Positions 2 through 14,706 of a DNA stretch of 64,000 nt are shown piece after piece (position 1 is the stretch's first letter; each line of letters opens with the position of its first letter). The translations under genes and the position numbers were made by a program. The stretch comes from Methylomonas montana (GTDB taxonomy: Bacteria > Pseudomonadota > Gammaproteobacteria > Methylococcales > Methylomonadaceae), in contig NZ_CP129884.1 in assembly GCF_030490285.1 (NCBI RefSeq), positions 1,054,001 to 1,118,000 of the forward strand. The letters run 5' to 3'. The notes below the pieces were generated by a model that was not told the DNA's origin, ran no database searches, and saw nothing but the letters and a program-made list of their open reading frames with translations.

Positions 2-1096
2 CGACTAGGCATCGGTGGCTTGGAGAACGGTCTGGTCAATATCATCAACAATCTGCCGGAAGGCAGCTATAGACACGCCATTATCTGTTTGACTGAAAGC
101 ACAGACTTCAGTCAACGTATCACCCGACAAGATGTGATTGTCCATCAATTACATAAACGCCCCGGACAAGATTGGGCTTCTTTTTATAAAGTGTATCGTC
201 TGCTGAAACAATGGCGGCCGGCGATTGTTCATACCCGCAATCTGGCCGCGATCGAGTATCAGCTTTGTGCGTTACTTGCCGGTGTTCCCTACAGAATACA
301 TGGCGAGCATGGCTGGGATGTCTTCGATCCTGACGGTAGTAATGTCAAATATCAATGGCTGCGGCGAATTTTAGGTTTAATCATTCACCGCTTCATTCCG
401 CTGTCGCAGCATTTGCAAGATTATTTGCTGACGCGCGTTGGTATTCCCGCCAAAAAAATCACCCGGATTTGTAACGGTGTCGACACCAAAATCTTTTATC
501 CTCGGCTGGGAAATAGGCTGGTACCGGAAGCCTGCTTGCTGGATTTGGATCAAAAGCTGGTAATAGGCAGCGTCGGGCGCATGCACGGCGTTAAAGATCA
601 GCTGACACTGGTAAGGGCGTTTATCGATGCCTGCGAAAAGTCACTGGAATTTGCGCGGATTACTCGTTTGTTTTTGATCGGCGACGGACCATTGCGTGCT
701 GAAGCGATTGAATTGCTGAATGCGGCTAAACTGGCCGATAAAGCCTGGTTGCCAGGCGAGCGTAACGATATTCCGGAAATTCTACGCAGTTTAGATATTT
801 TTGTGTTGCCCTCCAAGGCGGAAGGCATTTCCAATACTATATTGGAAGCGATGGCGAGCGGTTTGCCGGTCATTGCTACCCGCGTCGGCGGCAACCCCGA
901 GTTGGTGCTGGACGGTCAGACAGGTTGTCTGGTAGAAAAGGAAGATATCGAGGGTTTGTCGTTGGCGATGCAAGATTTGGTGGCGGATAACCAAAAACGG
1001 CGGCAATTAGGCGAGGCTTCACTTCGACGGATTCAGGCGGAATTTTCAATCGATAGCATGGTGAATCGCTATCGGCAAGTTTATGACAAGCAGTAA
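2..1096 (+). CDS. Exosortase A-associated GT4 glycosyltransferase (5' partial)
   Basis: A retaining GT-B glycosyltransferase of family 4, probably adding a sugar to the lipid-linked repeat unit of an exported polysaccharide at the inner membrane. The reading frame is open to the left edge (codons read RLGIGGLENG), so the true start lies upstream and the TTG at 20 is internal. The GGLENGL segment near the start, the HGEHGWD segment, and the C-terminal donor-binding part (GSVGRMHGVKD, then PSKAEGISNTILEAMASGLPVIAT) match the sugar transferases found beside exosortase A (TIGR03088 type). The next gene starts 20 bp downstream and is also exosortase-associated, which supports the assignment. The acceptor and sugar cannot be told from sequence. 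Confidence 0.85.
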   Translation, partial: RLGIGGLENGLVNIINNLPEGSYRHAIICLTESTDFSQRITRQDVIVHQLHKRPGQDWASFYKVYRLLKQWRPAIVHTRNLAAIEYQLCALLAGVPYRIHGEHGWDVFDPDGSNVKYQWLRRILGLIIHRFIPLSQHLQDYLLTRVGIPAKKITRICNGVDTKIFYPRLGNRLVPEACLLDLDQKLVIGSVGRMHGVKDQLTLVRAFIDACEKSLEFARITRLFLIGDGPLRAEAIELLNAAKLADKAWLPGERNDIPEILRSLDIFVLPSKAEGISNTILEAMASGLPVIATRVGGNPELVLDGQTGCLVEKEDIEGLSLAMQDLVADNQKRRQLGEASLRRIQAEFSIDSMVNRYRQVYDKQ

Positions 1097-1116
1097 AGGA
1101 TTCAGAGAGAACTCAT

Positions 1117-3003
1117 ATGTGCGGCATAGTCGGTATTTTCGATATTACAGGTGCTAGTGAAATAGACCGAAATTTGTTGTCGCGGATGAACGAATCCCAA
1201 TTTCATCGCGGACCCGATGAAGGCGGCATGCATACTGAACCCGGTTTGGGCTTTGGTCATCGCCGGTTGTCCATTATCGATTTGTCGAGCGGCCAGCAAC
1301 CGATGCATAGTCAAGACGGTAATGTGGTACTGACTTATAACGGCGAGGTCTATAACTTTCCGGAATTGCGCGAAGAATTGGAAGCATTGGGATATAGCTT
1401 CAGGACTCATTGCGATACCGAAGTGATTCTGTATGCCTGGCAGGTTTGGGGCGAGTCTTGCGTCGAGCGTCTGCGCGGCATGTTTGCGTTTGCGATTTGG
1501 GACAGGTCCAGTCAGACTTTATTTTTAGCCCGCGATCGCTTGGGCGTGAAGCCGCTGTTTTACGCCGAGTTAAGCAATGGTCAATTCATTTTCGGTTCCG
1601 AACTGAAAGCCTTGAAACAACATCCGCTGTTGCCTAAAGAGGTTGATGCTACCGCAATCGAAGACTATTTCGGCTTTGGTTATATTCCCGATCCCAAGAC
1701 TATTTACCGTGGTGTGTACAAGCTGGAACCGGGATATTGTCTGACGATCAAGCGCGGGCAGAATGCTTATCGCCCAAAACAATATTGGGATGTTAAGTTC
1801 CAGACCACTTCGGTGGGTGGGGCCGCCGAAGCAGGCGAAGAGTTGATCGAGCGCTTACGCGAGGCTGTTAAAATTCGAATGGTGGCCGACGTACCCCTGG
1901 GAGCCTTCCTTTCCGGCGGCGTCGATTCCAGCGGCGTAGTGGCATTGATGGCTGGATTATCCAAAGATCCGGTCAATACTTGCTCGATTTCGTTCGGCGA
2001 CCCGAAATTTAACGAAGCGCAATTCGCTGCTCAAGTGGCCGAGCGTTACCACACCGCGCACCGTGTCGAGCAAGTCGATCCCGACGACTTTAGTCTGATC
2101 GATCAGCTGTCCGGTTTGTACGACGAGCCTTACGCCGATAGTTCGGCACTGCCGACATATCGGGTTTGCGAATTGGCCAAGAAGCAGGTGACGGTGGTGT
2201 TGTCCGGCGATGGTGGCGACGAAAATCTGGCCGGCTATCGGCGTTATCGCTGGCATACATATGAAGAGCGAATGAGAGCATTGCTGCCCGATGCCCTGCG
2301 TGTGCCTTTGTTCTCGACTTTAGGCCGGGTTTATCCCAAGCTGGATTGGGCGCCAAAGGTATTGCGGGCTAAAACTACCTTGGAATCCATTGGTCGAGAT
2401 TCGATGGCCGGTTATTTTCACAGCGTATCAGTACTCTCCAACGGTATGCGCAGCCAATTATTTAGCGATAGCTTGAAAAGCGAGTTGCAGGGGTATCAGG
2501 CTATCGAGGTATTCCGCCGCTATAGCCGGCAAGCGCCGGATCATCCCTTATCGATGGTGCAATACCTGGATTTGAAAACTTATCTGGCTGGCGACATTCT
2601 GACTAAAGTCGACCGGGCTAGCATGGCGCATGCCTTGGAAGTGCGGGTGCCGCTGCTGGATCACAAGCTAGTGGAATGGATGGCAACCTTGCCGCCCGAT
2701 TTGAAACTACATGGCCGGGAAGGTAAATATCTCTTTAAGAAAGCGTTGGAACCTTATTTGCCCAATGATATTCTTTACCGGCCCAAAATGGGATTTGCAG
2801 TGCCATTGAGCAGCTGGTTTAGAGGGCCGTTAAAGCAGCGCGTACAGCAGGCCTTGCTAGGCGAAACCCTGCGAAGTACCGGTTGGTTCGATGAGGCTTA
2901 TTTGCATCATCTGGTCAGCCAACACCAGTCCGGGCTGCGCGATTACAGTGCGGCGATTTGGTCGCTACTGATGTTTGAAGCGTTTTTGCGTAATGGGCTC
3001 TAG
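1117..3003 (+). CDS. Exosortase A-associated amidotransferase, asparagine synthase type (AsnB-like)
   Basis: 628 residues with the two-domain layout of glutamine-hydrolysing asparagine synthase. The N-terminal class II glutaminase starts MCGIVGIF, so the nucleophile Cys2 is present. The C-terminal ATP-pyrophosphatase domain has FLSGGVDSSG near residue 264 and a second conserved block around LSGDGGDENLAGY. It activates a carboxylate with ATP and transfers ammonia from glutamine. Its position directly after an exosortase-type glycosyltransferase fits the TIGR03108 group (exosortase A system-associated amidotransferase 1), so the likely role is amidation of a uronic acid or another component of the polysaccharide rather than free asparagine synthesis. 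That substrate is inferred from context. Confidence 0.85.
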   Translation: MCGIVGIFDITGASEIDRNLLSRMNESQFHRGPDEGGMHTEPGLGFGHRRLSIIDLSSGQQPMHSQDGNVVLTYNGEVYNFPELREELEALGYSFRTHCDTEVILYAWQVWGESCVERLRGMFAFAIWDRSSQTLFLARDRLGVKPLFYAELSNGQFIFGSELKALKQHPLLPKEVDATAIEDYFGFGYIPDPKTIYRGVYKLEPGYCLTIKRGQNAYRPKQYWDVKFQTTSVGGAAEAGEELIERLREAVKIRMVADVPLGAFLSGGVDSSGVVALMAGLSKDPVNTCSISFGDPKFNEAQFAAQVAERYHTAHRVEQVDPDDFSLIDQLSGLYDEPYADSSALPTYRVCELAKKQVTVVLSGDGGDENLAGYRRYRWHTYEERMRALLPDALRVPLFSTLGRVYPKLDWAPKVLRAKTTLESIGRDSMAGYFHSVSVLSNGMRSQLFSDSLKSELQGYQAIEVFRRYSRQAPDHPLSMVQYLDLKTYLAGDILTKVDRASMAHALEVRVPLLDHKLVEWMATLPPDLKLHGREGKYLFKKALEPYLPNDILYRPKMGFAVPLSSWFRGPLKQRVQQALLGETLRSTGWFDEAYLHHLVSQHQSGLRDYSAAIWSLLMFEAFLRNGL

Positions 3004-3309
3004 GATAAGAAGCTAAAAGGGATTTGCGTTAAGACAGTTTGTAGCGATTTTGGTTGATATGTCGATGCTTAATTATCACCAAATGCCAGGCTATATTTTT
3101 ACAGCAAGTTCGGCTGCCTAGGGTTAATGGTGGTTATTGGTATGGTGTTCGGCGCAGAGTTTGTGCTAGTTGAAAGTTTAGGCCAACAAATTTCCACCAT
3201 TTGAGATGCAAGAATTTTTTAAATCACAATATTGAACAAGGGTGCAATAGACTGTGACAAAAAGTTTTGCTAGAGTGTGAGTTAATTCAAACTTTTGGGG
3301 TGTCGTGTT
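3004..3309. other. AT-rich intergenic region ahead of the HprK/PqqD cassette
   Basis: 306 bp without a convincing gene, visibly more AT-rich than the flanking EPS genes. Two tiny plus-strand ORFs exist (3059-3121, 20 codons; 3127-3204, 25 codons). The second has an AGGG a few bases before its ATG, but neither shows other signs of being coding. No clear hairpin terminator for the upstream amidotransferase was found. The promoter of the following cassette probably lies in the last 100 bp, but no -35/-10 pair with good spacing stands out. Confidence 0.4.
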
Positions 3310-3951
3310 ATGACTGTCAAAGACAAAGATATGATTCAGACTGATGAAAGCAGTGATGGCAAGCGAGTAGTAGATCATTCAAGACGTTCGTTTGCAAAAT
3401 TGAGTTCCGCTGTGGTGCCAGCAGTATTGACGCTAGCCAACCGGTCGGCATGGGCGACAGATCAATGTACTCAGTCAGGTTTTGCTTCGGCTTGGGCGGC
3501 TGCTTCGCATGTAACTTCTCAGGCAAATGCTAAGTGGTTGAAACCCAATCAATGGTTTGCTCTTGGGACATGGCCGACTCCAAGTACTACTACATTTCCG
3601 TATCGGAAGGTTACGTATAGAACTAGCAATGATGATTATGACTCAATTGATAGCCCTCCACTCTGGCCTGGACAGAAAGACTTGGATGAGGTAACGAACG
3701 CTGAAAGTGCTGGATGGATTATTTTAGCCAAGACTGCCTGCCCGTGGAGCCAAGATCTTTCAAATAACAGTACCTTGACTTTATACACTGCGTTAAATAA
3801 CTCTAATTCGGTGGTGGCATATTGGATCGCTTCGCTGATGAATAACCGCCTGGAACCATTTCCCAGTTATTTTCTGCCGGGTATTGGTGGTAGCGCACCT
3901 GCTGCGAGCCTCACCGAGTATCAAAATTTTTATAGTAGCTGTACACCCTAG
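3310..3951 (+). CDS. Secreted protein of unknown function with Tat-like leader
   Basis: 213 residues if started at the ATG (a TTG at 3295 is in frame but less likely). I do not recognise a family. Residues about 24-50 read SRRSFAKL followed by a hydrophobic stretch and AWA, which resembles a twin-arginine signal peptide ending in a signal peptidase I site. The mature part is rich in Ser, Thr, Asn and Trp and has three cysteines (in DQCT, TACPW and SSCTP). No PEP-CTERM tail or transmembrane anchor is present. The next gene starts 2 bp after the stop, and the three following genes are coupled to one another, so this is the likely substrate or product protein of the PqqD/HprK/nucleotidyltransferase cassette. 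The gene is AT-richer than its neighbours. Confidence 0.7.
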   Translation: MTVKDKDMIQTDESSDGKRVVDHSRRSFAKLSSAVVPAVLTLANRSAWATDQCTQSGFASAWAAASHVTSQANAKWLKPNQWFALGTWPTPSTTTFPYRKVTYRTSNDDYDSIDSPPLWPGQKDLDEVTNAESAGWIILAKTACPWSQDLSNNSTLTLYTALNNSNSVVAYWIASLMNNRLEPFPSYFLPGIGGSAPAASLTEYQNFYSSCTP

Positions 3952-3953
3952 TT

Positions 3954-4223
3954 GTGAATTTTAGTTGGGCTGTTCCCATAGACTCTGCGGTTTGGGATGA
4001 CGGGGTTGTTTTGAGTCATCGTCAATCGGGAGATACTTATTTATTCAGCGATGTGGCAAAGGATATATTGGCTTTTTGTTTGGCAAATCATCGATTCAGC
4101 GACAACGACCTGATCGAACTGACTAAAAATTGTTTTGAAGACAGTCTGCAGGTTGAAGCATTTGTGATGTCCCTATTGGAAAGCCTGATTGAAAAAGATT
4201 TAATTGCCACAGAATTACAGTGA
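3954..4223 (+). CDS. PqqD-like peptide-binding protein (HPr-rel-A system)
   Basis: 89 residues from a GTG start 2 bp after the upstream stop. Its pattern (AVWDDGVVLSHRQSGDTYLFSDVAKDIL, then a helical end) is that of the PqqD/RRE fold, a small winged-helix protein that binds leader peptides and presents them to modifying enzymes. PqqD-like proteins of this length beside an HprK-related kinase are known as the HPr-rel-A system (TIGR04353 type). It overlaps the kinase gene by GTGA, so the two are translated together. No radical SAM enzyme is nearby. The inferred role is to recruit a peptide or protein, possibly the product of 3310-3951, to the kinase. Confidence 0.75.
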   Translation: MNFSWAVPIDSAVWDDGVVLSHRQSGDTYLFSDVAKDILAFCLANHRFSDNDLIELTKNCFEDSLQVEAFVMSLLESLIEKDLIATELQ

Positions 4224-5146
4224 TAGCTGCCAACCATTGCGGGGACGATTTCGCCAAGCATTTGGCCGATTCTGGTCTGGTGATAAGTTCCGGGCCGATC
4301 AGATTTTTAGTTCACACCAAGATACCCTCCGTCGTTCAGAATCTTGCCAGACTTTATTCAGGACTGGCATGTTCGATTGATGAATCGGATACCGCATTTT
4401 TTGATTTTCACATTGCAGTAAGGCCGCCTAATTTATTCAGAAAGCTGTGGCATAGACAGGCCCAGTTTTTTCTGGATGATCAGATTATTTTCAATCCGTT
4501 TCCAGTCCACCACGCAACCGCCATGCTCGAATGGGGCATGAATTGGTGCGTTTCCACGCAAATTAACACCTATCTTATTATTCATGCGGCGGTAATTGAA
4601 AAAAATGGCTTTGCTGTCGTTTTGCCCGCACCTCCGGGTTCTGGAAAGAGCACGCTTTGCGCTTCCCTGGTTCTGGAAGGTTGGCGCTTGCTGTCGGACG
4701 AATTAACCTTGATCAATTTGCAGAGCGCAAACGCTGTGCCCATTCCTAGGCCGATCGGCTTAAAAAACCAATCTATCCAGGTTATTAGGGATCGTTATCC
4801 TGACGCGATTATGGGTTTGGTGTCTTCCGACACCTTGAAGGGGAGTGTCTCGCATCTGAAGCCGCCGGAAAGTAGCATTCAAATGCAAGCAGTTGAATGC
4901 CCGGTTGCTTGGATCGTATTTCCAAAATACCAAGAAAATGCCGCAACTCAGATAATTCCAAAGGCTAAAGGCCAGTCTTTTATGGCTATCGCCGATAACG
5001 CATTCAATTTTAGCCATCTTGGCAGTGTCAGTTTCGGCATATTGAAACAAGTTGTTGAAAACGCCCAATGCTATGATTTTTGCTACAGTCAGTTGGATGA
5101 AGCAATTACAGTTTTTAACAAATTGGCAAGACCGAATGAATTCTAG
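4220..5146 (+). CDS. HprK-related kinase A
   Basis: 308 residues starting at a GTG inside the PqqD-like stop (GTGA). Residues 122-165 carry the HPr kinase/phosphorylase-like core: HAAVIEKNG, a Walker A loop PAPPGSGKST (137-146) and the following RLLSDELTLI strand with acidic residues. The N-terminal 120 residues are specific to this subfamily (TIGR04352 type). True HprK phosphorylates Ser46 of HPr. No HPr or PTS gene is here, so another hydroxyl substrate is expected. Related kinases in lasso-peptide clusters phosphorylate the C-terminal residue of the peptide. The gene overlaps the next one by 11 bp. Confidence 0.85.
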   Translation: MIAANHCGDDFAKHLADSGLVISSGPIRFLVHTKIPSVVQNLARLYSGLACSIDESDTAFFDFHIAVRPPNLFRKLWHRQAQFFLDDQIIFNPFPVHHATAMLEWGMNWCVSTQINTYLIIHAAVIEKNGFAVVLPAPPGSGKSTLCASLVLEGWRLLSDELTLINLQSANAVPIPRPIGLKNQSIQVIRDRYPDAIMGLVSSDTLKGSVSHLKPPESSIQMQAVECPVAWIVFPKYQENAATQIIPKAKGQSFMAIADNAFNFSHLGSVSFGILKQVVENAQCYDFCYSQLDEAITVFNKLARPNEF

Positions 5147-6221
5147 CCAGCCCTTATTGGTGCAGATTTTAAGGGCTGAGCAATCGTTGGCAACGCTTAA
5201 TGCCCGGCAGTGGGATTTACTTGTTCGTCAGGCGGCGCGAGCCAAGTTAATAGGGACGCTTTACTATCGTGCCGAGCAGGAAAATTTGCTCGGTCAATTA
5301 CCCGTAGGAGTCATGAGGCATCTGGAGTCGGCAAAAGTTAAAGCTGATAAACAGTACCGAGATTTTCTCTGGGAAATTAATCGCTTAAAGAAAGCTTTAG
5401 TCGGTCTTGCGGGCTCTCCCGTGTTGTTAAAAGGGGCGGCTTATGCTGCCGCGCAATTACCCCCCTATAAAGGGCGATTATTTTCTGATATCGATTTGAT
5501 GGTGCCTTTAGATGCTATCCCGGTATTTGAGAAGCAGTTGATGCTAAATGGCTGGCTTAGCGAGGAATCCAACACGTATGATCAAAAATACTACAGACAA
5601 TGGATGCACGAAATTCCGCCGCTAAGGCATGTAAAGCGTGGCAGCGTCATCGATTTACACCATAATATTCTGCCTAGAACTGCATTTGCCTGCCCTGATC
5701 CAGGGATGTTGCTGGAATCTGCGGTAGAGTTGGTGGGGGATGATAGCGGTTTCAAAGTGCTATCACCGCTGGATAGAATCATTCACAGTGCGACCCATTT
5801 ATTTTATGACGGGGAGTTTGAGCACGGGCTGCGTGATCTAGTCGATTTGGAAAGATTGGTGATTGTGCTTGATGACGATACTCGATTATTGTTGGTTGAT
5901 AGGGCTTGGCAGCTAGGATTACAAAAGCCAGTTTATTATGCTTTGCGCTATCTTCAACTAATTCTCAATGTCCAAGGATTGAGCAACGCACTGCGGAAGC
6001 TGGAAAAGGCTGGCGATATTACCGGGAATATGATTTTGATGGATGCATTGTTTTTAAGGGCACTGATGCCGGATCATCCTAGTTGCGACGATCAATGGAC
6101 TGCTGTTGCGCGTTGGATGTTGTATATGCGCTCGCATTATCTAAGAATGCCGTTACACTTGCTTATTCCACATTTATCGAGAAAGGCTTGGATACGGCTG
6201 TTTGGTAAAGAACAACATTAA
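5136..6221 (+). CDS. Nucleotidyltransferase family protein (PF14907 type)
   Basis: 361 residues from the ATG at 5136, which overlaps the end of the kinase gene by 11 bp. An earlier in-frame ATG at 5052 would lie deep inside the kinase and is not used. Residues 95-123 read VLLKGAAYA then GRLFSDIDLMV, the nucleotidyltransferase-fold signature with the metal-binding DxD at 118-120. A lone histidine pattern follows (IDLHHNI). This matches the uncharacterised nucleotidyltransferase group often found with HprK-related kinases and PqqD-like proteins. In the lasso-peptide pseudomycoidin cluster, a member annotated this way was reported to extend the kinase-added phosphate with a sugar. Whether this one does so is unknown. 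Confidence 0.8.
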   Translation: MNSSQPLLVQILRAEQSLATLNARQWDLLVRQAARAKLIGTLYYRAEQENLLGQLPVGVMRHLESAKVKADKQYRDFLWEINRLKKALVGLAGSPVLLKGAAYAAAQLPPYKGRLFSDIDLMVPLDAIPVFEKQLMLNGWLSEESNTYDQKYYRQWMHEIPPLRHVKRGSVIDLHHNILPRTAFACPDPGMLLESAVELVGDDSGFKVLSPLDRIIHSATHLFYDGEFEHGLRDLVDLERLVIVLDDDTRLLLVDRAWQLGLQKPVYYALRYLQLILNVQGLSNALRKLEKAGDITGNMILMDALFLRALMPDHPSCDDQWTAVARWMLYMRSHYLRMPLHLLIPHLSRKAWIRLFGKEQH

Positions 6222-6286
6222 TCTGTGATAGTTCGGTCGAGAACGGCAAACTACCAGGATCGAAAATAGACTGAACTTGTTTCGAC

Positions 6287-7504
6287 ATGAAGATATTACA
6301 CATATTGGATCACTCCATTCCTTTGCACAGCGGATACACTTTCCGTACCCGCGCCATTCTTGAACAACAACGCAAACTGGGTTGGGAGACGTTTCACGTC
6401 ACATCGGCTAAACATCAAGTCGCGGAAGCGCCCATCGAAACCATAGATGGGCTAACCTTTTATCGATCCGTCATCCCGCAAGGTTTGGCGGCAAAATTAC
6501 CTGTTTTAAATCAGTGGGCCATCGTGCAGTCTTTGGCGGAACGAATGGATGAAATCATTCCGCAGATCAAGCCGGATATTTTGCACGCCCATTCGCCGGC
6601 ATTGAATGGGTTTGCGGCATTAAAAATGGCCAAAAAATATGGGTTGCCGTTGGTTTACGAATGCCGGGCATTTTGGGAGGATGCGGCCGTCGATCACGGT
6701 ACCACTCAAGAAGGCAGTTTGCGTTACCGATTGACCAAGGCTTTGGAAACACACGTGTTTAAGCATGCCGACGCTGTCACGACTATTTGCGAAGGTTTAC
6801 GCCGAGATATTATCGGGCGCGGAGTCGCCGCAGAAAAAATTACCGTGATTCCCAACGCCGTCGATATCGATAAGTTTACCTATGGCGAAGCCGCCGAGCC
6901 CGATTTGCAGGCCGAATTGGGTTTGAGCGGCAAAATTGTACTCGGCTTTATCGGGTCTTTTTATGCTTATGAAGGCTTGCTGCTGCTGTTGGATGCTTTG
7001 CCGGCGATTATCGAACAGCAACCTGATGTGCGATTGTTGTTAGTGGGCGGCGGGCCGCAACAGCAGCAAATCGTGCAGAAAATTGAGGAGTTGGGCTTGC
7101 AGGATTGGGTCATTCTTCCCGGACGCGTCGCTCACGATCAAGTGCAGCGCTATTACAATCTAGTCGATATTTTTGTTTATCCGCGCTTGGCGATGCGCTT
7201 AACCGATTTGGTGACCCCTTTGAAGCCGCTGGAAGCGATGGCCCAAGGCCGATTGTTGGTGGCGTCGGATGTCGGCGGACATCACGAATTGATTCGCAAC
7301 CGGGAAACCGGCTATCTGTTCAAAGCCGGAGATAAAACAGCGTTGGCGCAAGCGGTGTTGGCGGCGCTCAATCAGCAAGATCAATGGGAGCAAGTTCGGC
7401 AAGCCGGTAGGCGCTATGTCGAAGAAGAGCGCAATTGGCGGCGAAGCGTTAGTCATTATCAAGCTGTTTACGGCAGGGTAATGGCGGGTAAAGATGGCAG
7501 ATAA
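6287..7504 (+). CDS. Exosortase A-associated glycosyltransferase (Daro_2409/TIGR04063 type)
   Basis: 405 residues, GT-B fold family 4 glycosyltransferase. The N-terminus MKILHILDHSIPLHSGYTFR is typical of the third sugar transferase of exosortase A loci. A C-terminal donor-binding domain follows (VIPNAVDIDKF, LGFIGSFYAYEG, then LKPLEAMAQGRLLVASDVGGHHELI). It acts on the cytoplasmic side in assembly of the polysaccharide repeat. The start codon lies 65 bp after the nucleotidyltransferase, which marks the return to polysaccharide genes. The stop overlaps the next glycosyltransferase by 11 bp, so the two are translationally coupled. Confidence 0.85.
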   Translation: MKILHILDHSIPLHSGYTFRTRAILEQQRKLGWETFHVTSAKHQVAEAPIETIDGLTFYRSVIPQGLAAKLPVLNQWAIVQSLAERMDEIIPQIKPDILHAHSPALNGFAALKMAKKYGLPLVYECRAFWEDAAVDHGTTQEGSLRYRLTKALETHVFKHADAVTTICEGLRRDIIGRGVAAEKITVIPNAVDIDKFTYGEAAEPDLQAELGLSGKIVLGFIGSFYAYEGLLLLLDALPAIIEQQPDVRLLLVGGGPQQQQIVQKIEELGLQDWVILPGRVAHDQVQRYYNLVDIFVYPRLAMRLTDLVTPLKPLEAMAQGRLLVASDVGGHHELIRNRETGYLFKAGDKTALAQAVLAALNQQDQWEQVRQAGRRYVEEERNWRRSVSHYQAVYGRVMAGKDGR

Positions 7505-8696
7505 CTCGCCAAGACTGATTGTTTTCAGTTCTTTGTATCCCAGTCGGGTCAGGCCTAACGCTGGCGTTTTTATTCGCGAGCGTATGTCCAAAGTGGCTCG
7601 TCATTGCCCTTTGGTGGTCATTTCGCCGGTTCCCTGGTTTCCATTGCAAGGCCTGATTCAATGGTTTAAACCTGATTATCGGCCGCAACCGGATAAATAC
7701 GAAGATCAAGACGGTATCTCTGTGTATTTTCCGCGCTTTTTATCAATACCTGGGATGGGGCGGTCTTGGGACGGTTTTTTTATGGCGCTAGGTAGCTTGG
7801 CGATTTGCTATCGATTAAAAAAGCGCTTTGCGTTTAATTTGATTGATGCCCACTTCGCTTATCCGGATGGCTATGCGGCCACCTTACTCGGCAGATGGTT
7901 TAAGGTGCCGGTAACCATCACGTTGCGTGGTACAGAAGTGCCATTGTCTAAAACTCCCAGTCGTCGGCAACGATTATTGAAAGCACTAAATAATGCCGCC
8001 CGAGTATTTTCGGTATCGGATTCCTTAAAGCGACATGTGGTTAATTTGGGTGCCGATGCCGAAAAAATCCGGGTGGTGGGTAACGGCATCGATACCGCAA
8101 AATTTTTTCCTGTCGATAAGAGGTTGGCCCGGCAACATTGGCAAATTCCCGAAGATGCTCAGGTATTGATTTCGGTCGGCGGATTGGTCGATAGAAAAGG
8201 TTTCCATCGGGTGATCGAAATTCTGCCGGCATTAATCGAAAAATATCCACGATTGCTATACTTGATCGTCGGCGGCGCCAGCCCGGAAGGCAATATTCGC
8301 AGTCGCTTGGAGCAACAAGTTGAAACGCTTAATCTCGGTCAACATGTCCGCTTTCTAGGGGCGCTGCCCGCCGAGCAATTGCATGGCCCATTATCGGCCG
8401 CCGATCTATTTGTTTTGGCCACTGCCAACGAAGGTTGGGCCAACGTGTTTCTGGAGGCCATGGCTTGCGGCTTGCCGGTGATTAGCACCGACGTCGGCGG
8501 CAATCGCGAGGTGGTTGCTGATGAAACGCTGGGCAGTATCGTGCCGTTTGGGAATGCGGATGCCTTATTGCTAGCGCTTGATAATGCCTTGCAACGACAG
8601 TGGGATCGGCAGGCTATAATTAATTATGCGGCTGATAACGCTTGGGATAAGCGGGTGGATATTTTGTTGGCTGAATTCAAGAAACTGGTGGAGTGA
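7494..8696 (+). CDS. GT4 family glycosyltransferase
   Basis: 400 residues. The N-terminal acceptor domain begins with LIVFSSLYPSRVRPNAGVFIRER, a pattern seen in polysaccharide glycosyltransferases of family 4. The donor domain contains VVGNGIDTAKF, SVGGLVDRKGFH and ANEGWANVFLEAMACGLPVIST, including the E-x7-E type motif of GT4 enzymes. It is coupled by overlap to the gene before it (11 bp) and to the ligase after it (TGATG). The likely role is another sugar transfer in building the extracellular polysaccharide. The sugar is not predictable. Confidence 0.85.
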   Translation: MADNSPRLIVFSSLYPSRVRPNAGVFIRERMSKVARHCPLVVISPVPWFPLQGLIQWFKPDYRPQPDKYEDQDGISVYFPRFLSIPGMGRSWDGFFMALGSLAICYRLKKRFAFNLIDAHFAYPDGYAATLLGRWFKVPVTITLRGTEVPLSKTPSRRQRLLKALNNAARVFSVSDSLKRHVVNLGADAEKIRVVGNGIDTAKFFPVDKRLARQHWQIPEDAQVLISVGGLVDRKGFHRVIEILPALIEKYPRLLYLIVGGASPEGNIRSRLEQQVETLNLGQHVRFLGALPAEQLHGPLSAADLFVLATANEGWANVFLEAMACGLPVISTDVGGNREVVADETLGSIVPFGNADALLLALDNALQRQWDRQAIINYAADNAWDKRVDILLAEFKKLVE

Positions 8697-10045
8697 TGAG
8701 CTTTTATACGTCTTTTTGTTCAACGGTGATTTTTCCGCTTCACGAGGCGTTAAAAAAGCATACTTCTGTCGAGGTTAGGCGCGGCATGGAACGTAGCCAA
8801 TGGCTCAAGCCCGAGGAAATCAGGCAATTGCAATTGCAAAATCTGCGGGCTTTCTTGATCGATGTTCAAACGCATGTGCCGTACTATCGGCAATTGTTTA
8901 CCAACCTGAGTTTTGATCCGGCCAGCATCGATAGCTTGCAAACATTAGCCGCTTTGCCTTTGTTGAGTAAGCCAGAAATCAGACAACATCTCGCCGAGAT
9001 GAAAGCCGACGATGCCCAAGGTTTAGCGCGTTTCAATACTGGCGGCTCCAGTGGTGAACCGCTGATTTTTTACATCGGTAATCGAAGGGTCAGCCACGAT
9101 GTGGCGGCAAAATGGCGGGCAACCCGCTGGTGGGGCGTCGATATCGGCGATCCGGAAGCCGTGATTTGGGGCTCGCCTATTGAATTGGGTGCTCAAGATA
9201 AAATTCGCTTGTTGCGCGATAAATTACTCCGTACGCATCTGATTCCGGCCTTCGAAATGTCGTCGGAAAAACTGGATGGTTTTATCCGGCAAATTCAAGA
9301 AATTCGTCCGAAGATGCTATTCGGTTATCCGTCCGCATTGGCGCATATCGCCAGTCATGCCGAGAAGCGGGGCGTCGCCTTAAATAATCTCGGGATCAAG
9401 GTCGCTTTCGTGACTTCGGAACGGCTATACGATCATCAGCGGGCCAAGATAGAAAGTGTATTCGCTTGCCCGGTTGCCAATGGCTATGGCGGTCGCGATG
9501 CCGGTTTTATAGCTCACCAATGCCCGCAAGGCAGTATGCATATCACCGCCGAAGATATTATCGTCGAGATTGTCGATAAAAAAGGCCAGCCTTTGCCTAA
9601 TGGAGAGCTTGGAGAGATCGTGGTAACGCATTTGGCGACCCGCGATTTTCCGTTTATCCGTTACCGTACTGGCGATATGGGTATTTTGTCCGATAAAACC
9701 TGTAGCTGTGGCCGTGGCTTGCCGGTGCTGGAGGACATCCAGGGCCGCACCACGGACTTTGTGGTGGCTCAGGACGGTACGGTATTGCATGGCCTGGCGC
9801 TGATTTACGTGTTGCGCGATTTGGAAGGCGTTGACGCATTCAAAATCACCCAGGACAGTTTGGATAAAACCACGGTACAAATCGTTAAAACAGCCGCATA
9901 TCAAGCCGCTTTCGAACAAAAGATCGTCGGTGAATTTAAAAAGCGTTTAGGTCAAGCGGTTGCCGTCAATATTGAATATACCGATTACATTCCCAAGGAG
10001 CGTTCAGGCAAATTCCGGTATGTGATCAGTCACGTCAAGCCCTAA
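8696..10045 (+). CDS. Adenylate-forming ligase, CapK/phenylacetate-CoA ligase-like
   Basis: 449 residues from the ATG at 8696; a GTG codon directly before it (8693) is the alternative start. The AMP-binding loop FNTGGSSGEPL lies near residue 120. Later motifs are VANGYGGRDAG, FPFIRYRTGDMG and a cysteine pair CSCGRGLP, typical of the phenylacetate-CoA ligase/CapK branch. These enzymes activate a carboxylate as an acyl adenylate and are common in capsule and EPS clusters, where they probably prepare an acyl or amino acid group for decorating the sugar chain. The next gene encodes an amide-forming enzyme family member, so the two could act in sequence. That link is inference. Confidence 0.8.
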   Translation: MSFYTSFCSTVIFPLHEALKKHTSVEVRRGMERSQWLKPEEIRQLQLQNLRAFLIDVQTHVPYYRQLFTNLSFDPASIDSLQTLAALPLLSKPEIRQHLAEMKADDAQGLARFNTGGSSGEPLIFYIGNRRVSHDVAAKWRATRWWGVDIGDPEAVIWGSPIELGAQDKIRLLRDKLLRTHLIPAFEMSSEKLDGFIRQIQEIRPKMLFGYPSALAHIASHAEKRGVALNNLGIKVAFVTSERLYDHQRAKIESVFACPVANGYGGRDAGFIAHQCPQGSMHITAEDIIVEIVDKKGQPLPNGELGEIVVTHLATRDFPFIRYRTGDMGILSDKTCSCGRGLPVLEDIQGRTTDFVVAQDGTVLHGLALIYVLRDLEGVDAFKITQDSLDKTTVQIVKTAAYQAAFEQKIVGEFKKRLGQAVAVNIEYTDYIPKERSGKFRYVISHVKP

Positions 10046-10060
10046 TCAAAAATAACAACG

Positions 10061-11845
10061 ATGACGAAATTTGTAGGATGGATAGGAGGCGATCTCCAAA
10101 ATGAAGGCGCTAGCCGGGTGCTGGAGCGGATGGTGGCGACAGATTTTGCGCCGAATTATCTGCAAGGGCAGTGGTATGCATTGGCAAGCGCTTCAAGCGA
10201 TGTTCGGCAGAGCGCAGGGGCAGTGCTGTTAACGCCCCAATCCGGTTCGCGACCGGATCGCCAGCAGCATTTACTGGATGCTTATTTAAATCAGGGCGCG
10301 GATTTTTTAATTGGTTTGCCCGAGGCGGATGCTTTAGTGCTCATCGATTTCGAGCGACAAAGACTGGTGTTAGCAACCGACCCTATTGGTCTTAGCCACA
10401 TCTATTATGCGGAAATCGAGGACGGTGTAGTCTTTGGCTCCAGTGCCGATTTTGTGGTGAGGCATCCGCAAGTCAGTAATGCCATTCGCCCGCAAGCTAT
10501 CTTCGATTACATCTATCTCAGTCACTGTCCTAGCCCAGGCACTATCTATCAGCAAGTCAAAAAGCTGGAAGGTGGCCAATGCTTGATTTATCAGAACGGG
10601 CAGCTAAGCATCAAGCGTTACTGGTTGCCGGAGTTTACCGAGCAAACTTGCGATTTGCGGCAAGCGGGGCAGGAGTTGCAGCAGGCATTGATCGATGCAG
10701 TCAGAGGCATGGTCGATACCGAAGAATACACCGGTGCGTTTCTCAGTGGCGGTCTGGATAGCTCTAGTGTTGCCGGGGCGCTGGCAAAGGTATTTCCAGG
10801 GAAAGCGAAAACTTTTTCGATGGGATTTAAGGTAGAGGGTTACGACGAAATCGAATATGCCAATCTGGCAGTACAGCATTTTAAAACGCGCCAGCATGAG
10901 TATTACGTGACGCCTGAAGATACCGTCAATGCAGTGCCGGCTATTGCAGCTTATTATGACGAACCGTTCGGTAACTCTTCGGCTTTGGCCGCTTACTATT
11001 GCGCCAAATTAGCCAAGGAGCACGGTGTTAACCGCTTGTTGGCCGGCGATGGTGGCGACGAAATCTTTGCCGGCAACGAGCGCTATGCCAAACAGATGCT
11101 GTTCGATAATTACCACCGTTTGCCGAGTTTTGTCAGTGCCGGGCTCGAAGCAGTGTTAAATAGCTTGCCGAATGCACTTGCCAAACAAAAGTTACCGTTT
11201 AAGGCCAAGCGCTATATAGAACAAGCTAATGCGGCTATGCCCGATCGCTTACAGGATTACAATTTTTTGCACCGGCATGCCGCCGCCGATATTTTTCAGG
11301 CTGACTTTTTAGCGCAAATCGACACGGGCGTGCCGTTACAACAGCTCCGAGACACTTATCATCGGCCTGAAAATGTCAGTACCTTGAATCGTATGCTGTA
11401 TATGGATTGGAAAAGTACGCTGCACGATAACGATTTGGTTAAAGTTAACAGGATGTGCGAAATGGCCGGTGTCGAGGTCTGTTACCCTTTGCTGGATAGG
11501 CGAATGATCGATTTATCCTGCCGGATTCCTTCTCATGACAAATTGCGCGGCCAAAAACTGCGTTGGTTTTACAAACAAGCCATGGCGGATTTTCTGCCGG
11601 AACGGATTATCAACAAACCTAAGCACGGGTTTGGATTGCCTTTCGGGGTTTGGCTAAGGGATCATCAGCCCTTGAAGGAGCTGGCTTATGGTGCCATTCA
11701 GGGCTTAAAAAAACGTGGTTTCTTTAAGCCGGAGTTCTTGGACCACGCCATCCATATGCATCAAACCATTCATGCCGCCTATTACGGTGAGTTAATCTGG
11801 ATATTGATGATGCTGGAGTTATGGTTTGTCGGAAAAGGTTTGTAG
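10061..11845 (+). CDS. Asparagine synthase-related protein lacking the glutaminase cysteine
   Basis: 594 residues. The C-terminal ATP-pyrophosphatase domain is intact, with FLSGGLDSSSVAG around residues 227-239, LLAGDGGDEIFAGNERYA and the late KHGFGLPFGVWL segment. The N-terminal domain keeps the class II glutaminase outline (VLATDPIGLSHIYYA, VFGSSADFVV) but starts MTKFVGWIG, so Cys2 is absent and glutamine hydrolysis is not expected. It may use free ammonia or an amine substrate, as in beta-lactam synthetase and lasso cyclase relatives. It is the last gene of the polysaccharide block and follows the adenylate-forming ligase by 15 bp. The substrate is unknown. Confidence 0.75.
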   Translation: MTKFVGWIGGDLQNEGASRVLERMVATDFAPNYLQGQWYALASASSDVRQSAGAVLLTPQSGSRPDRQQHLLDAYLNQGADFLIGLPEADALVLIDFERQRLVLATDPIGLSHIYYAEIEDGVVFGSSADFVVRHPQVSNAIRPQAIFDYIYLSHCPSPGTIYQQVKKLEGGQCLIYQNGQLSIKRYWLPEFTEQTCDLRQAGQELQQALIDAVRGMVDTEEYTGAFLSGGLDSSSVAGALAKVFPGKAKTFSMGFKVEGYDEIEYANLAVQHFKTRQHEYYVTPEDTVNAVPAIAAYYDEPFGNSSALAAYYCAKLAKEHGVNRLLAGDGGDEIFAGNERYAKQMLFDNYHRLPSFVSAGLEAVLNSLPNALAKQKLPFKAKRYIEQANAAMPDRLQDYNFLHRHAAADIFQADFLAQIDTGVPLQQLRDTYHRPENVSTLNRMLYMDWKSTLHDNDLVKVNRMCEMAGVEVCYPLLDRRMIDLSCRIPSHDKLRGQKLRWFYKQAMADFLPERIINKPKHGFGLPFGVWLRDHQPLKELAYGAIQGLKKRGFFKPEFLDHAIHMHQTIHAAYYGELIWILMMLELWFVGKGL

Positions 11846-12060
11846 AGATTTTTGTATTGATGATTTGCGGGAGGGCGCGCGAAACGTTCCTCTAGGTGAC
11901 AAAAAACGTCAGTTTTTGGCAAAAATGGCGTTGTGCTTTGGGTTTGAATGGGGTGGTTTGTCTGGTTTTCTAGGTTCAGATAGGAGTGTGTCTCGACAAA
12001 AACCTTGAGTTACCTGAGGAGATGGGCTGGTTTTGAGGTAGATTAGCGGCTAACGAAAAG
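11846..12060. other. Non-coding region between EPS block and pilin gene
   Basis: No gene is supported; a 60-codon ORF at 11826-12008 overlaps the upstream gene and has no coding character. A weak hairpin with CAAAAAAC and GTTTTTG arms near 11898-11920 might terminate the EPS transcript. The rest holds no recognised element until the sigma-54-like promoter at 12061. Confidence 0.35.
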
Positions 12061-12077
12061 TTGGCATGTTAATTGAT
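12061..12077 (+). promoter_or_regulatory. Sigma-54 (RpoN) type -24/-12 promoter of pilA
   Basis: TTGGCATG-TTAA-TTGAT matches the consensus YTGGCACGrNNNTTGCW at the -24 GG and at almost all other positions, with the exact 12-base distance between the -24 GG (12063-12064) and the -12 G (12075). Deviations are CAT for CAC and TTGA for TTGC. Transcription would start near 12088, giving a short leader before the ATG at 12125. Pilin genes in Pseudomonas and relatives are RpoN/PilR dependent, which fits. Confidence 0.65.
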
Positions 12078-12124
12078 CATAACTTGGGGAGTTTTCAACC
12101 CATCAATCATAAAGGAAGGCAGTT

Positions 12125-12622
12125 ATGAACAAGCAAATGCAAAAACTACAACAAGGTTTTACCTTGATCGAATTGATGATCGTGGTCGCGATCATCGGTA
12201 TCTTGGCAGCCATCGCGATTCCGGCTTACCAAGATTATACTATTAAATCCAAAGTGTCCGAAGGTCCAAGTTTAGCGTCGCCAGCCATAACTGCGGGCGG
12301 TGTTGCATGTAGTGATGGTACTTTGGGTATGGGAGCTACGGGAACGGCAGCGGGTGCTCAGACAAATGCATCTTTTGGCCTTAGTACCAGCACAGCCATT
12401 ACAGGTAAATATGTCGCTTCAGTTGGGGTGACCGCTGCATCTTTTGCTACCAATCCTACCGCGACAATCACTATCACCTATAGAACGCTTGGTGGGCCTG
12501 TGCCAGCTGGGAGAACTGTGATTTATTCTGGTCGATGCACAGAAGGGGCAGGAATGCAATGGACAGTTCCAACCGGTACAACAGGGGGTACAATGGATCA
12601 AAAATATAGACCAAAATCATAA
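12125..12622 (+). CDS. pilA: Type IV major pilin
   Basis: 165-residue prepilin. An 11-residue leader ends in Gly and is followed by [20 protein letters not shown], the type III signal with Glu at mature position 5, so prepilin peptidase (PilD) would cleave between Gly11 and Phe12. The mature protein has the N-terminal hydrophobic spine, an [11 protein letters not shown] stalk and a C-terminal domain rich in Thr, Ala, Ser and Gly. Two cysteines (VACSDG and SGRCTEG) probably form the disulfide loop. A purine-rich AAAGGAAGGC ribosome site precedes the ATG. The gene has its own sigma-54-like promoter and a terminator, and a membrane glycosyltransferase follows. It serves in adhesion, twitching or DNA uptake. 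Confidence 0.92.
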
Positions 12623-12643
12623 TATTTGTTTTAACCAGTAGTT

Positions 12644-12670
12644 AAAGGGGCCTTCGGGCCCCTTTTGTTT
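12644..12670 (+). terminator. Intrinsic terminator of pilA
   Basis: A perfect 9-bp stem AAAGGGGCC/GGCCCCTTT with a TTCG tetraloop, followed by a T-rich tail (TTTTGTTTT). It lies 22 bp after the pilA stop codon. Confidence 0.9.
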
Positions 12671-12693
12671 TGATGGTAATTTAGTAATCGAAA

Positions 12694-14706
12694 ATGATGA
12701 CTTGGTTTAACCCACTATTCAAGCTTTTACGTCACTCGAACTGTCTGAAATTGTTATTGCTTGCAGTTTTGATATTGATCATATATTTGCCGGGTCGTCA
12801 CGGTCCGTTTGTGGCGGATGATTATCCCAATATTATCGATAACAATGGTGTTCTGCTTGAACATCTCAATTTCCATGAATTAGCTTCCGCCTGGAGCGGT
12901 AATACTAGCGGTCCACTCAAACGTCCACTAGCCAGCCTGAGCTTCGCGCTAAACTATTATTTTGCTGATCAGCATTTCAACCCGACCGCATTCAAGCTGA
13001 CCAATATCGGCATCCACATTATTAATAGCTTTCTGGTTTTCTTCTTGAGCCGTTTGCTATTCGCTGTCGCTACTCCACGTTATCCCGCGCAACAATTAGC
13101 TTTCGTCTCCGCATTGATTTGGGCATTGCACCCTTTACAACTAACCTCAGTATTGTATGTGGTTCAGAGAATGAGCAGCATGTCCTGCTTGTTTATGTTG
13201 GGCGGGTTTTTAATGTTTTTGAAGGGCAGGCTGCAATGCAATAAACTTGGTGGTATTGCATTGATGGTTGCTGGTTGTCTGTTGGGGACGGCTTTGGGGG
13301 CGTTGACCAAGGAAAATGCCTTGCTGCTGCCCTTGTTGATTTTTGTCTGCGAGATCACCTTGCTGCCTACTATTTCGCAGGGAGCAGTTCGCAATAGAGT
13401 TTATGCCTATTACGCAGTGACGGTGGCGGTTCCGGTGCTGCTAGGTGTGGGTTTCTTGCTAGGGCATCCCGAATATGTGCTGGGAGGTTATCTCACCCGC
13501 GATTTTACCTTGGCGGAACGGTTGATGACCGAAGCTCGGGTATTGTTTTATTACCTGGGTTTGTTGCTGTATCCAGACAACACCCAGCTCAGTCTGGCGC
13601 ATGACGACTTCACTTTGAGTAAGGGGCTGCTCCAGCCAATTAGTACCTTATTATCGATAGCAGGCGTATTTGCTTTGATCGCTGTGGCGATCATCAATAC
13701 CTGGCGCAAAAAAACGCCGTTTTTGAATTTTGCGATTCTGTGGTTTTTTGTCGGCCAGAGCATGGAATCCAGTATTTTTCCATTGGAACTAATCTACGAA
13801 CATCGTAATTATTTGCCGAATATAGGTGTCGTGATACTCGTGGTGGTATTGTTGTATGAGTCGCTTGCCACGCGAATTAGTAACAGTTTGCTTAACACGT
13901 TATACGTTTGCATTGTTATCAGTCTGGGCTTGGCTACTCATACCAGAGCCGCGATCTGGTCGAATCTGGATAGCTTTAGCTATTTTGAAGTCCGTAATCA
14001 TCCTACGTCGGTGCGCGCTAATAGCGCCTATGCCAATAGTCTTGAGTTGAAGCAAGGACCTAATGCGGAAACTTATCAGCATTATTTGATTGCCTCGCAG
14101 CTTAATACCTTTGAAGTATCGACGTTGATCGAAATGTTCAATGAACTGAACCGATTGATATATTTTCATGATGCTTCCCAAGACAAGAAAGACATCGCTC
14201 TGCCCAGTCGATATGACGATCCATTGGTTCTGGATGGTCAATATATGCAAACCTTAAAAAACCTGGTGCATCGGGAGATCGTGCGGCGGGCTTCCGATAA
14301 ATCCCATCCATTGCGCACCATGGATTCGATTCGCACGGCGGCGACCTGTTTAATCAATGGTGATTACGAATGCAAAACAATAGCTGCCAATGTGCTGGAA
14401 TGGATCGACGCTACTTTGATGCAGCAGAATTTTGATAAACCGGTGATGTATCTTATTAAGGCTAAGGTTTATTTCAATCAAGGGCAAACTGATCAGGCGT
14501 TTGCGGCCCTCGATAAAGCCCTCGAATTATCGCCGGACAGAATGTATTTTTACGCCGAAAAAGCCTATTTATTTATCACCCTTGATGAGTTTGACAAGGC
14601 TGAGCAAGTCATTAGACAGGCCGAATCGCGAGGCGTCGCCACGGGCTTCGATGCGAAGGAGTTTAAGAAGCTCAGAGACGTTATGGTTATCAAAAGAAAA
14701 GGCTGA
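12694..14706 (+). CDS. TMTC-like GT-C membrane glycosyltransferase with TPRs (possible pilin O-glycosylation)
   Basis: 670 residues. The first 430 are multi-spanning, beginning with a helix at about 18-35 and an acidic loop FVADDYPNI. This resembles the double-Asp loop of GT-C enzymes and the DDxxAI-type motif of TMTC protein O-mannosyltransferases. The KRPLASLSFALNY segment that follows is also seen in TMTC-like proteins. The C-terminal 100 residues form tetratricopeptide-like repeats (KAKVYFNQGQTDQAFAALDKALELSPDRMYFYAEKAYL). Such enzymes move a sugar from a polyprenyl phosphate donor to a protein on the periplasmic side. The gene begins 25 bp after the pilA terminator, so the pilin is the natural candidate acceptor; this is inference from position. 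Confidence 0.7.
   Translation: MMTWFNPLFKLLRHSNCLKLLLLAVLILIIYLPGRHGPFVADDYPNIIDNNGVLLEHLNFHELASAWSGNTSGPLKRPLASLSFALNYYFADQHFNPTAFKLTNIGIHIINSFLVFFLSRLLFAVATPRYPAQQLAFVSALIWALHPLQLTSVLYVVQRMSSMSCLFMLGGFLMFLKGRLQCNKLGGIALMVAGCLLGTALGALTKENALLLPLLIFVCEITLLPTISQGAVRNRVYAYYAVTVAVPVLLGVGFLLGHPEYVLGGYLTRDFTLAERLMTEARVLFYYLGLLLYPDNTQLSLAHDDFTLSKGLLQPISTLLSIAGVFALIAVAIINTWRKKTPFLNFAILWFFVGQSMESSIFPLELIYEHRNYLPNIGVVILVVVLLYESLATRISNSLLNTLYVCIVISLGLATHTRAAIWSNLDSFSYFEVRNHPTSVRANSAYANSLELKQGPNAETYQHYLIASQLNTFEVSTLIEMFNELNRLIYFHDASQDKKDIALPSRYDDPLVLDGQYMQTLKNLVHREIVRRASDKSHPLRTMDSIRTAATCLINGDYECKTIAANVLEWIDATLMQQNFDKPVMYLIKAKVYFNQGQTDQAFAALDKALELSPDRMYFYAEKAYLFITLDEFDKAEQVIRQAESRGVATGFDAKEFKKLRDVMVIKRKG

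Follow-up and report, generated by a model that had tools for sequence, protein, structure and literature searches.

Introduction

What could an HprK-related kinase and a nucleotidyltransferase do next to a protein with a twin-arginine translocation (Tat) signal? The question is raised by four consecutive genes in a 64,000-nucleotide stretch of the Methylomonas montana genome (contig NZ_CP129884.1, positions 1,054,001 to 1,118,000), hereafter called the window. The gene of a Tat-leader protein is followed after a 2-bp gap by a PqqD-like gene, which overlaps a kinase gene by 4 bp, which in turn overlaps a nucleotidyltransferase gene by 11 bp. Open reading frame (ORF) calls and Pfam/NCBIfam searches bear out these genes, their order and their spacing as the first-pass annotation had read them from the DNA. 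Enzymes of these kinds have so far been studied chiefly on small modified peptides. By their sequences the three enzymes correspond to NCBI's uncharacterised "HPr-rel-A" system, in which the PqqD-like gene has the expected place and a score under its model's cut-off, i.e., a PqqD/RRE-like protein (RRE, the recognition element of ribosomally synthesised and post-translationally modified peptides, RiPPs), an HprK_rel_A kinase and a PF14907 protein. The same three enzyme genes make up HPr-rel-A (TIGR04352, TIGR04353, together with PF14907, which we take to be part of the definition), and its names cover enzymes only. Searching for HPr-rel-A and HprK-related kinase as terms, we found no paper in the open-licence literature.

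We propose, at odds of roughly two to one (a probability of about 0.65), that the four genes form a RiPP-like system dedicated to the maturation of a single Tat-exported protein. The comparison of sequences across genomes supports this proposal by a constant partnership of kinase and Tat protein, a motif shared by the Tat proteins, conserved catalytic residues, a match to lasso-peptide RREs and the absence of HPr.

A Tat protein is the constant partner of the kinase

Of 109 kinase loci 98 were scored, on the plus strand only (19 of L002-L031 and all 79 of L052-L130). With a Tat profile built from most of these loci, the two with a downstream gene not among them, a match lies upstream of the kinase in 92 of 98 loci (in L125 a C-terminal fragment only) and downstream in 2. 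A nucleotidyltransferase homologue is present in 96 of 98. Such an arrangement is not due to chance. Four locus stretches, L100, L107, L123 and L128, contain no Tat protein; a genome search yields matches for L123, L100 and L128, and for L107 neither the stretch nor the genome search gives a match to the Tat profile.

For the genome surveys a kinase was counted when it scored above the TIGR04352 cut-off of 200. Profiles A1 and A3 describe type 1 Tat proteins, the window's own type; A4 was built from 26 Tat proteins with other bodies, and A2 represents the PqqD family. Among 101 genomes of relatives the kinase is over cut-off in 44, and A1 matches 41, all within those 44. A1 has no match in any of the 57 relatives without such a kinase, 11 of which show a kinase match of lower score. 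Three of the kinase genomes stay unmatched, namely G045, G073 and G084. G045 and G084 carry an upstream Tat protein (L218 and L217). In G073 the kinase lies 56 bp from the contig end, which makes this genome uninformative on the partnership.

In a sample of 397 Pseudomonadota genomes the kinase passes the cut-off in 51, with 52 copies in total, and 135 of the remaining 346 match the kinase model more weakly. A Tat-signal partner, defined as a match to A3 or A4 at E <= 1e-6, is encoded in all 51; it is no further than about 2 kb away for 46 of the 52 copies of the kinase. Counted by coordinates, A3 identifies the adjacent protein in 25 of the 51 genomes, and the remaining kinase regions mostly show Tat proteins with different bodies. 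Profile A4 identifies those which A3 had missed; where the kinase has no such neighbour, it finds unlinked Tat genes, six in all (G169, G177, G122, G319, G283, G484). Each of the six proteins has the Tat signal, and towards its C-terminus a C-x-x-Ser, which reads C[WF]xS in five and CLNS in G319. In the 346 other genomes A4 has no match at E <= 1e-6 and A3 has three (G330, G388, G258); these cover model positions 75-181 only, i.e., the globular part without signal or motif. Between 1e-6 and 1e-3 the same genomes give 11 weak matches with A3 (G306, G368, G416, G429, G493, G361, G399, G469, G482, G136, G164) and two with A4 (G288, G486).

Judged by these surveys, the Tat protein is the constant partner of the kinase, save for a few cases at contig ends or in incomplete genomes. 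The first-pass annotation had put the Tat-leader protein forward as candidate target of the trio and had itself named a genome survey as a possible refutation; the candidate came through with 51 of 51 kinase genomes in the large sample and 41 of 44 with A1 in the relatives. It had also proposed to check whether the family of the window's protein always accompanies the trio, and this holds in one part: a Tat-type partner is constant, while relatives of the window's own body are present in only part of the cases.

Individual genomes depart from one kinase with one neighbour. G217 encodes a linked and an unlinked type 2 Tat protein (L237 = G217:C66; L208 = G217:C392; for the types see below), thus one cassette may serve more than one protein. 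G454 has two kinase copies (C1:2337630-2339327 and 2897805-2899491), each with its own adjoining Tat protein. In G051 (C2:2023541-2025066) the kinase match is in two pieces about 0.7 kb apart, possibly an interrupted gene. L219 (G136, 2223-2510) and L220 (G164, 1942-2316) are distant HprK-like kinases (TIGR04352 scores of 64.8 and 59.3 bits). About 1.6 kb upstream of each a Tat protein is encoded that is short and rich in Cys, and the two loci may represent another class of this system, more remote than the others.

Dissimilar bodies, one signal and one serine motif

At E <= 1 neither Pfam nor NCBIfam contains a family that matches the window's Tat protein. Thirty members of the family gave isolated weak matches to these databases, TIGR01409 (TAT signal) in 3 of 30; no family specific to the Tat proteins was among them. 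The Tat protein was also unmatched in the plasmids searched. The signal is conserved: in 94 aligned relatives the first arginine of the twin pair is present in 93 and the second in all 94, and a pattern near PV..TL.SRPA.G is conserved downstream. SRRSFAK followed by a hydrophobic stretch and a genome that encodes TatC (231.9 bits) are features of a Tat substrate; export itself is a prediction.

The structure model of the window's protein is poor (mean predicted local distance difference test, pLDDT, 53.9). For L078, a typical type 1 relative (60 sequences), the mean is 78.8. Blocks from residue 81 onward average 86-97, and the N-terminal part with leader, signal and Ser motif has block means of 46-73. 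An N-terminal part of such low confidence would be in keeping with a modification site that is accessible. With Foldseek the L078 model found nothing in the Protein Data Bank (PDB) at E <= 0.001 (best 2.2), and the globular part is hence without a known fold there. The globular part of type 1 (SPGYWK...LNA) also matches, outside signal and Ser motif, inside far larger ORFs of 760-2276 aa (G059:C1:2154277-2154609, G026:C18:436-750, G007:C1:3877073-3877441, G388:C23:21698-21967).

The bodies of the Tat proteins are dissimilar. Common to them are the Tat signal and a motif that approximates [ST]-[GC]-hydrophobic-x-Ser. In type 1 this is C-x-x-S-G-hydrophobic-x-S directly after the Tat signal. The equivalent of Ser60 is Ser in 87 of 88 type 1 proteins, a count which leaves out six rows (L004, L007, L008, L009, L015, L074) and becomes 88 of 94 with them. 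In types 2 and 3 the motif is [ST]-C-[WFY]-x-S-[FIL] and is located close to the C-terminus. C[WFY]xS at most 25 residues from the end occurs in 29 of 34 type 2/3 proteins versus 16 of 6800 shuffles, and in none of the 88 type 1 proteins. By a count of the protein ends, C-x-x-Ser is near the C-terminus in 32 of 34, three of these with a residue other than W, F or Y. In the 26 rows of alignment A4 both Cys and Ser are invariant; A4 omits 8 of the 34 proteins, including L197 and L217, and 26 of 26 applies to the chosen rows only. The full pattern fits 24 of these 26 proteins and 12 of 992 other Ser in type 1 bodies. The N- and C-terminal versions resemble one pattern.

A different picture would emerge if the conserved Cys, i.e., Cys53 and the Cys of the C-terminal motif, were the modified residue, e.g., by a thiol-linked group, and the Ser only recognised. 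A Cys 4-11 residues ahead of Ser60 in 83 of 88 type 1 proteins, together with the C-x-x-Ser of types 2 and 3, is in keeping with this possibility. We nevertheless give it a low probability: the Cys is missing in 5 of 88 type 1 proteins and Ser60 in 1 of 88, and known kinases of this sort act on Ser (PMC9266682; PMC13381572).

Does the position of the motif follow the kinase? On a kinase tree of 111 rows it switches twice, against a shuffled mean of 30.6, and 0 of 500 shuffles were as low. This is a quick tree with four long branches, 26 rows dropped (mostly near-copies) and 6 unlabelled; whole groups were labelled instead of single rows, with L181-L218 and five relatives taken as C-terminal, and related rows add to the clustering even after thinning. 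With only two changes, kinase lineage and motif position go together.

The three enzymes

The kinase exceeds the TIGR04352 cut-off of 200 by a wide margin (Table 1), and all 99 kinases of the alignment have His122, Lys143, Asp160 and Glu161. That it is a classical HPr kinase with the HPr of the phosphotransferase system as substrate has next to no probability. The homology is distant, with 18 bits to TIGR00679 (HPr kinase/phosphorylase) versus a cut-off of 240, and the complete genome has no match to PF00381 (HPr) at E <= 0.001, in a search which was positive in 7 of 14 control genomes. The absence of an HPr gene, initially noticed in the window, consequently holds genome-wide and HPr is excluded as substrate in this organism. 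In the nucleotidyltransferase, Asp117 and Asp119 (numbered from codon 5139) are each present in 97 of 97 sequences.

Profile A2 of the PqqD-like family matched structures of RREs: the lasso RREs TfuB1 (6jx3) at 4.6e-5 and TbiB1 (5v1u) at 0.0014, a lasso PqqD chaperone (9x90) at 0.0057 and PqqD (3g2b) at 0.14. The RRE homology is seen with the family profile only; the window's PqqD-like protein alone finds no RRE structure. When the PqqD-like protein, the kinase and the nucleotidyltransferase were searched singly against the PDB, no hit was stronger than E 0.1; among those for the kinase was HPr kinase 1jb1, at 0.51.

Table 1. Features of the Tat-protein cassette; positions are those of the window.
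Feature	Position	Strand	Basis
Tat-leader protein, type 1, predicted cassette substrate (213 aa)	3310..3951	+	ATG start, ORF list; ...DHSRRSFAKLSSAVVPAVLTLANRSAWA
Tat signal, residues 24-49 (SRRSFAK...TLANRSAWA); proposed RRE-binding region	3379..3456	+	conservation in 94 aligned relatives
Cys53-x-x-Ser56-Gly-Phe-x-Ser60, predicted modification motif; Ser60 preferred acceptor	3466..3489	+	conservation in type 1 proteins
PqqD-like protein, predicted leader-binding RRE (89 aa)	3954..4223	+	GTG start; TIGR04353 E 2.6e-6
HprK-related kinase A (308 aa)	4220..5146	+	GTG start; TIGR04352 352.9 bits
Nucleotidyltransferase PF14907, predicted to modify phospho-Ser (361 aa)	5136..6221	+	ATG start; PF14907 E 2.6e-48

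Genomic context

The cassette is flanked by three XrtA/PEP-CTERM-associated families, glycosyltransferases and an amidotransferase (TIGR03088, TIGR03108, TIGR04063). The exosortase is not in the window. The XrtA gene of this genome is near 2.56 Mb on the same contig, about 1.4 Mb from the window at 1.05-1.12 Mb. The first-pass placement "inside an exosortase A-type polysaccharide locus" is right about the XrtA-associated flanks and loose as a description, because the exosortase resides elsewhere. In a set of 64 loci, each more than 11 kb long, just 5 contain homologues of the genes that flank the cassette in the window. A restriction of the polysaccharide context to these 5 was considered and overturned once all neighbours were clustered: with neighbour families named from representatives, XrtA-system genes occur in 41 of 64. 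The link to polysaccharide loci thus extends beyond this genome, and a surface-polysaccharide role of the Tat protein, as predicted from gene context, is plausible.

The same 41 of 64 loci can be viewed from another side. Kinase and nucleotidyltransferase might act on a small molecule or a glycan intermediate, with the Tat protein as acceptor, carrier or binding partner and the PqqD-like protein as a proofreading chaperone of the Tat leader. It also fits that Pfam lists PF14907 as an uncharacterised nucleotidyltransferase. We regard this as unlikely, although somewhat less so than a modified Cys. A near-invariant Ser motif which shifts between N- and C-terminus along with the kinase lineage speaks against it, and homologous kinases act on a Ser of precursor peptides (PMC9266682; PMC13381572).

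Kinase, RRE and nucleotidyltransferase are also common to paeninodin-type clusters (PMC9266682), and the asparagine-synthase-like gene upstream (1117-3003) could be taken for the cyclase of a lasso-peptide cluster. We consider this highly improbable. The gene encodes an XrtA amidotransferase (TIGR03108, 1085.8 bits) and reaches 262.9 bits with the lasso cyclase model NF033535 versus a cut-off of 525; its homologues are present in just 5 of the 64 long loci. A second candidate, 10061-11845, scores 132.9 bits against the same cut-off. A leader peptidase is absent among the 8 neighbours scanned, and the predicted substrates are mostly 120-290 aa long.

Further neighbours deserve mention. A trypsin-like protease gene is present in 30 of 79 loci (e.g., L078:3968-4762) and is located no more than 400 bp upstream of the Tat protein in 13 of the 30; it is a candidate processing protease. 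The asparagine-synthase-like gene at 10061-11845 is below the cut-off of the six NCBIfam models it matched and has no Cys at position 2. It adjoins a PaaK-like ligase gene (8693-10045), in the polysaccharide locus.

Comparison with known systems

The closest parallel is with the linear polyphosphorylated peptides (LPP) of Bacillota, in which an HprK-like kinase, encoded beside an RRE and a nucleoside triphosphate (NTP) transferase, polyphosphorylates Ser3 just after the leader; the clusters are located in polysaccharide loci (PMC13381572, 2026). Both systems combine a discrete RRE, an HprK-like kinase and an NTP transferase, and both reside in polysaccharide loci. The precursors have a conserved N-terminus and a variable remainder, and where LPP carry the phospho-Ser just after the leader, a conserved Ser is present here. 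The differences are equally clear. LPP have a SipW-like leader peptidase (SpI-like), an MsbA-like exporter and a YxxP leader; here we find a Tat signal, in Pseudomonadota. Neither an SpI-like leader peptidase nor an MsbA-like transporter was among the 8 neighbours scanned (20-14703). The main text of the LPP paper does not mention twin-arginine, proteobacteria or Pseudomonadota, exosortase or TIGR04352.

In paeninodin and pseudomycoidin the kinases PadeK and PsmK phosphorylate a C-terminal Ser, and PsmN is needed for a hexose on that phosphate (PMC9266682). An HprK-like kinase acting on Ser and a nucleotidyltransferase-like enzyme acting next would be common to this tailoring and to the cassette, and the C-terminal Ser resembles that of types 2 and 3. 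Unlike in these clusters, no lasso cyclase over cut-off is among the 8 neighbours scanned, and in place of a lasso peptide the predicted substrate is a protein exported by Tat. The two motif positions resemble two precedents, after the leader as in LPP and C-terminal as in the lasso kinases.

A proposed maturation pathway and its weak points

According to our proposal of a dedicated maturation system, the PqqD-like protein, a discrete RRE, would bind the precursor while it is cytoplasmic. The site bound would probably be the region of the Tat signal, because the leader shows little other conservation. In the maturation of Tat redox enzymes, small cytoplasmic proteins (TorD, DmsD) retain their particular Tat precursor up to its completion; in the cassette this part would fall to a PqqD/RRE-like protein, encoded together with modifying enzymes. 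The HprK-related kinase would phosphorylate the near-invariant Ser of [ST]-[GC]-hydrophobic-x-Ser, Ser60 in the window, once or several times. The PF14907 enzyme would then add a nucleotide or a sugar to the Ser phosphate. The cytoplasm is where ATP and sugar nucleotides are available, and the Tat route suits a protein that has to be completed there. After export of the modified protein by the Tat system the general signal peptidase would cleave the leader, which would make a dedicated leader peptidase unneeded. Outside the cell, the modified protein may associate with surface polysaccharide. Every binding and chemical step, and this association, we infer, the chemistry by homology.

Several observations weigh against the pathway as drawn. 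Profiles A1, A3 and A4 were built from neighbours of the kinase, and rows of A3 or A4 came from many of the 51 kinase genomes; the counts of adjacency and the matches of these genomes are to that degree circular. The six unlinked proteins, none of which is in A4, and the absence from the other genomes are free of this circularity. The full pattern fits just 32 of 88 type 1 proteins, and two type 2-like proteins (L197, L217) have no C-x-x-Ser. Ser56 and Ser60 are both candidate acceptors, with Cys53 conserved as well. The kinase seems to have Asp-Glu where the His-Lys-Asp-Asp motif of lasso kinases ends in Asp (PMC9266682), if the two motifs correspond as we infer. The window's PqqD-like protein scores 28.3 bits to TIGR04353 (PqqD_rel_X), below the cut-off of 35; Pfam PqqD is recognised at E <= 0.01 in just 7 of 37 PqqD-like homologues, and an iterated search finds the gene in 80 of 98 loci. 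The leader motif [YW]xxPx[LVIFA] of the lasso and LPP RREs is present in 0 of 93 type 1 leaders, which reduces the RRE-leader contact to a guess. Finally, deletion of the NTP-transferase gene of LPP resulted in no detectable change (PMC13381572). The role of the nucleotidyltransferase is therefore the weakest part of the proposal.

Significance

The trio was known by name and its proposed chemistry has close precedents. For the kinase's constant Tat partner and its motif, and likewise for the types with a C-terminal motif and the unlinked genes, we found no description in the open-licence literature; subscription papers may hold one. The shared Ser motif, the C-terminal types and the parallel with LPP were not part of the first-pass annotation. 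Presently, we can only offer as a tentative possibility, well short of an even chance, that many Pseudomonadota make a Tat-exported surface protein on which a RiPP-type trio has placed a phospho-nucleotide or phospho-sugar linked to Ser, with the Tat signal doubling as RRE leader. Such a protein could be an attachment point or organiser of the neighbouring XrtA-type exopolysaccharide. A widespread, uncharacterised trio now has a probable target, and its function becomes directly testable on one protein, one motif and one or two Ser. If true, RRE-guided tailoring would extend from short peptides to Tat-exported proteins, and a protein-export signal would be joined with a modification leader. 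The Pseudomonadota would then possess a counterpart to the phospho-peptides of Bacillota, likewise in polysaccharide loci.

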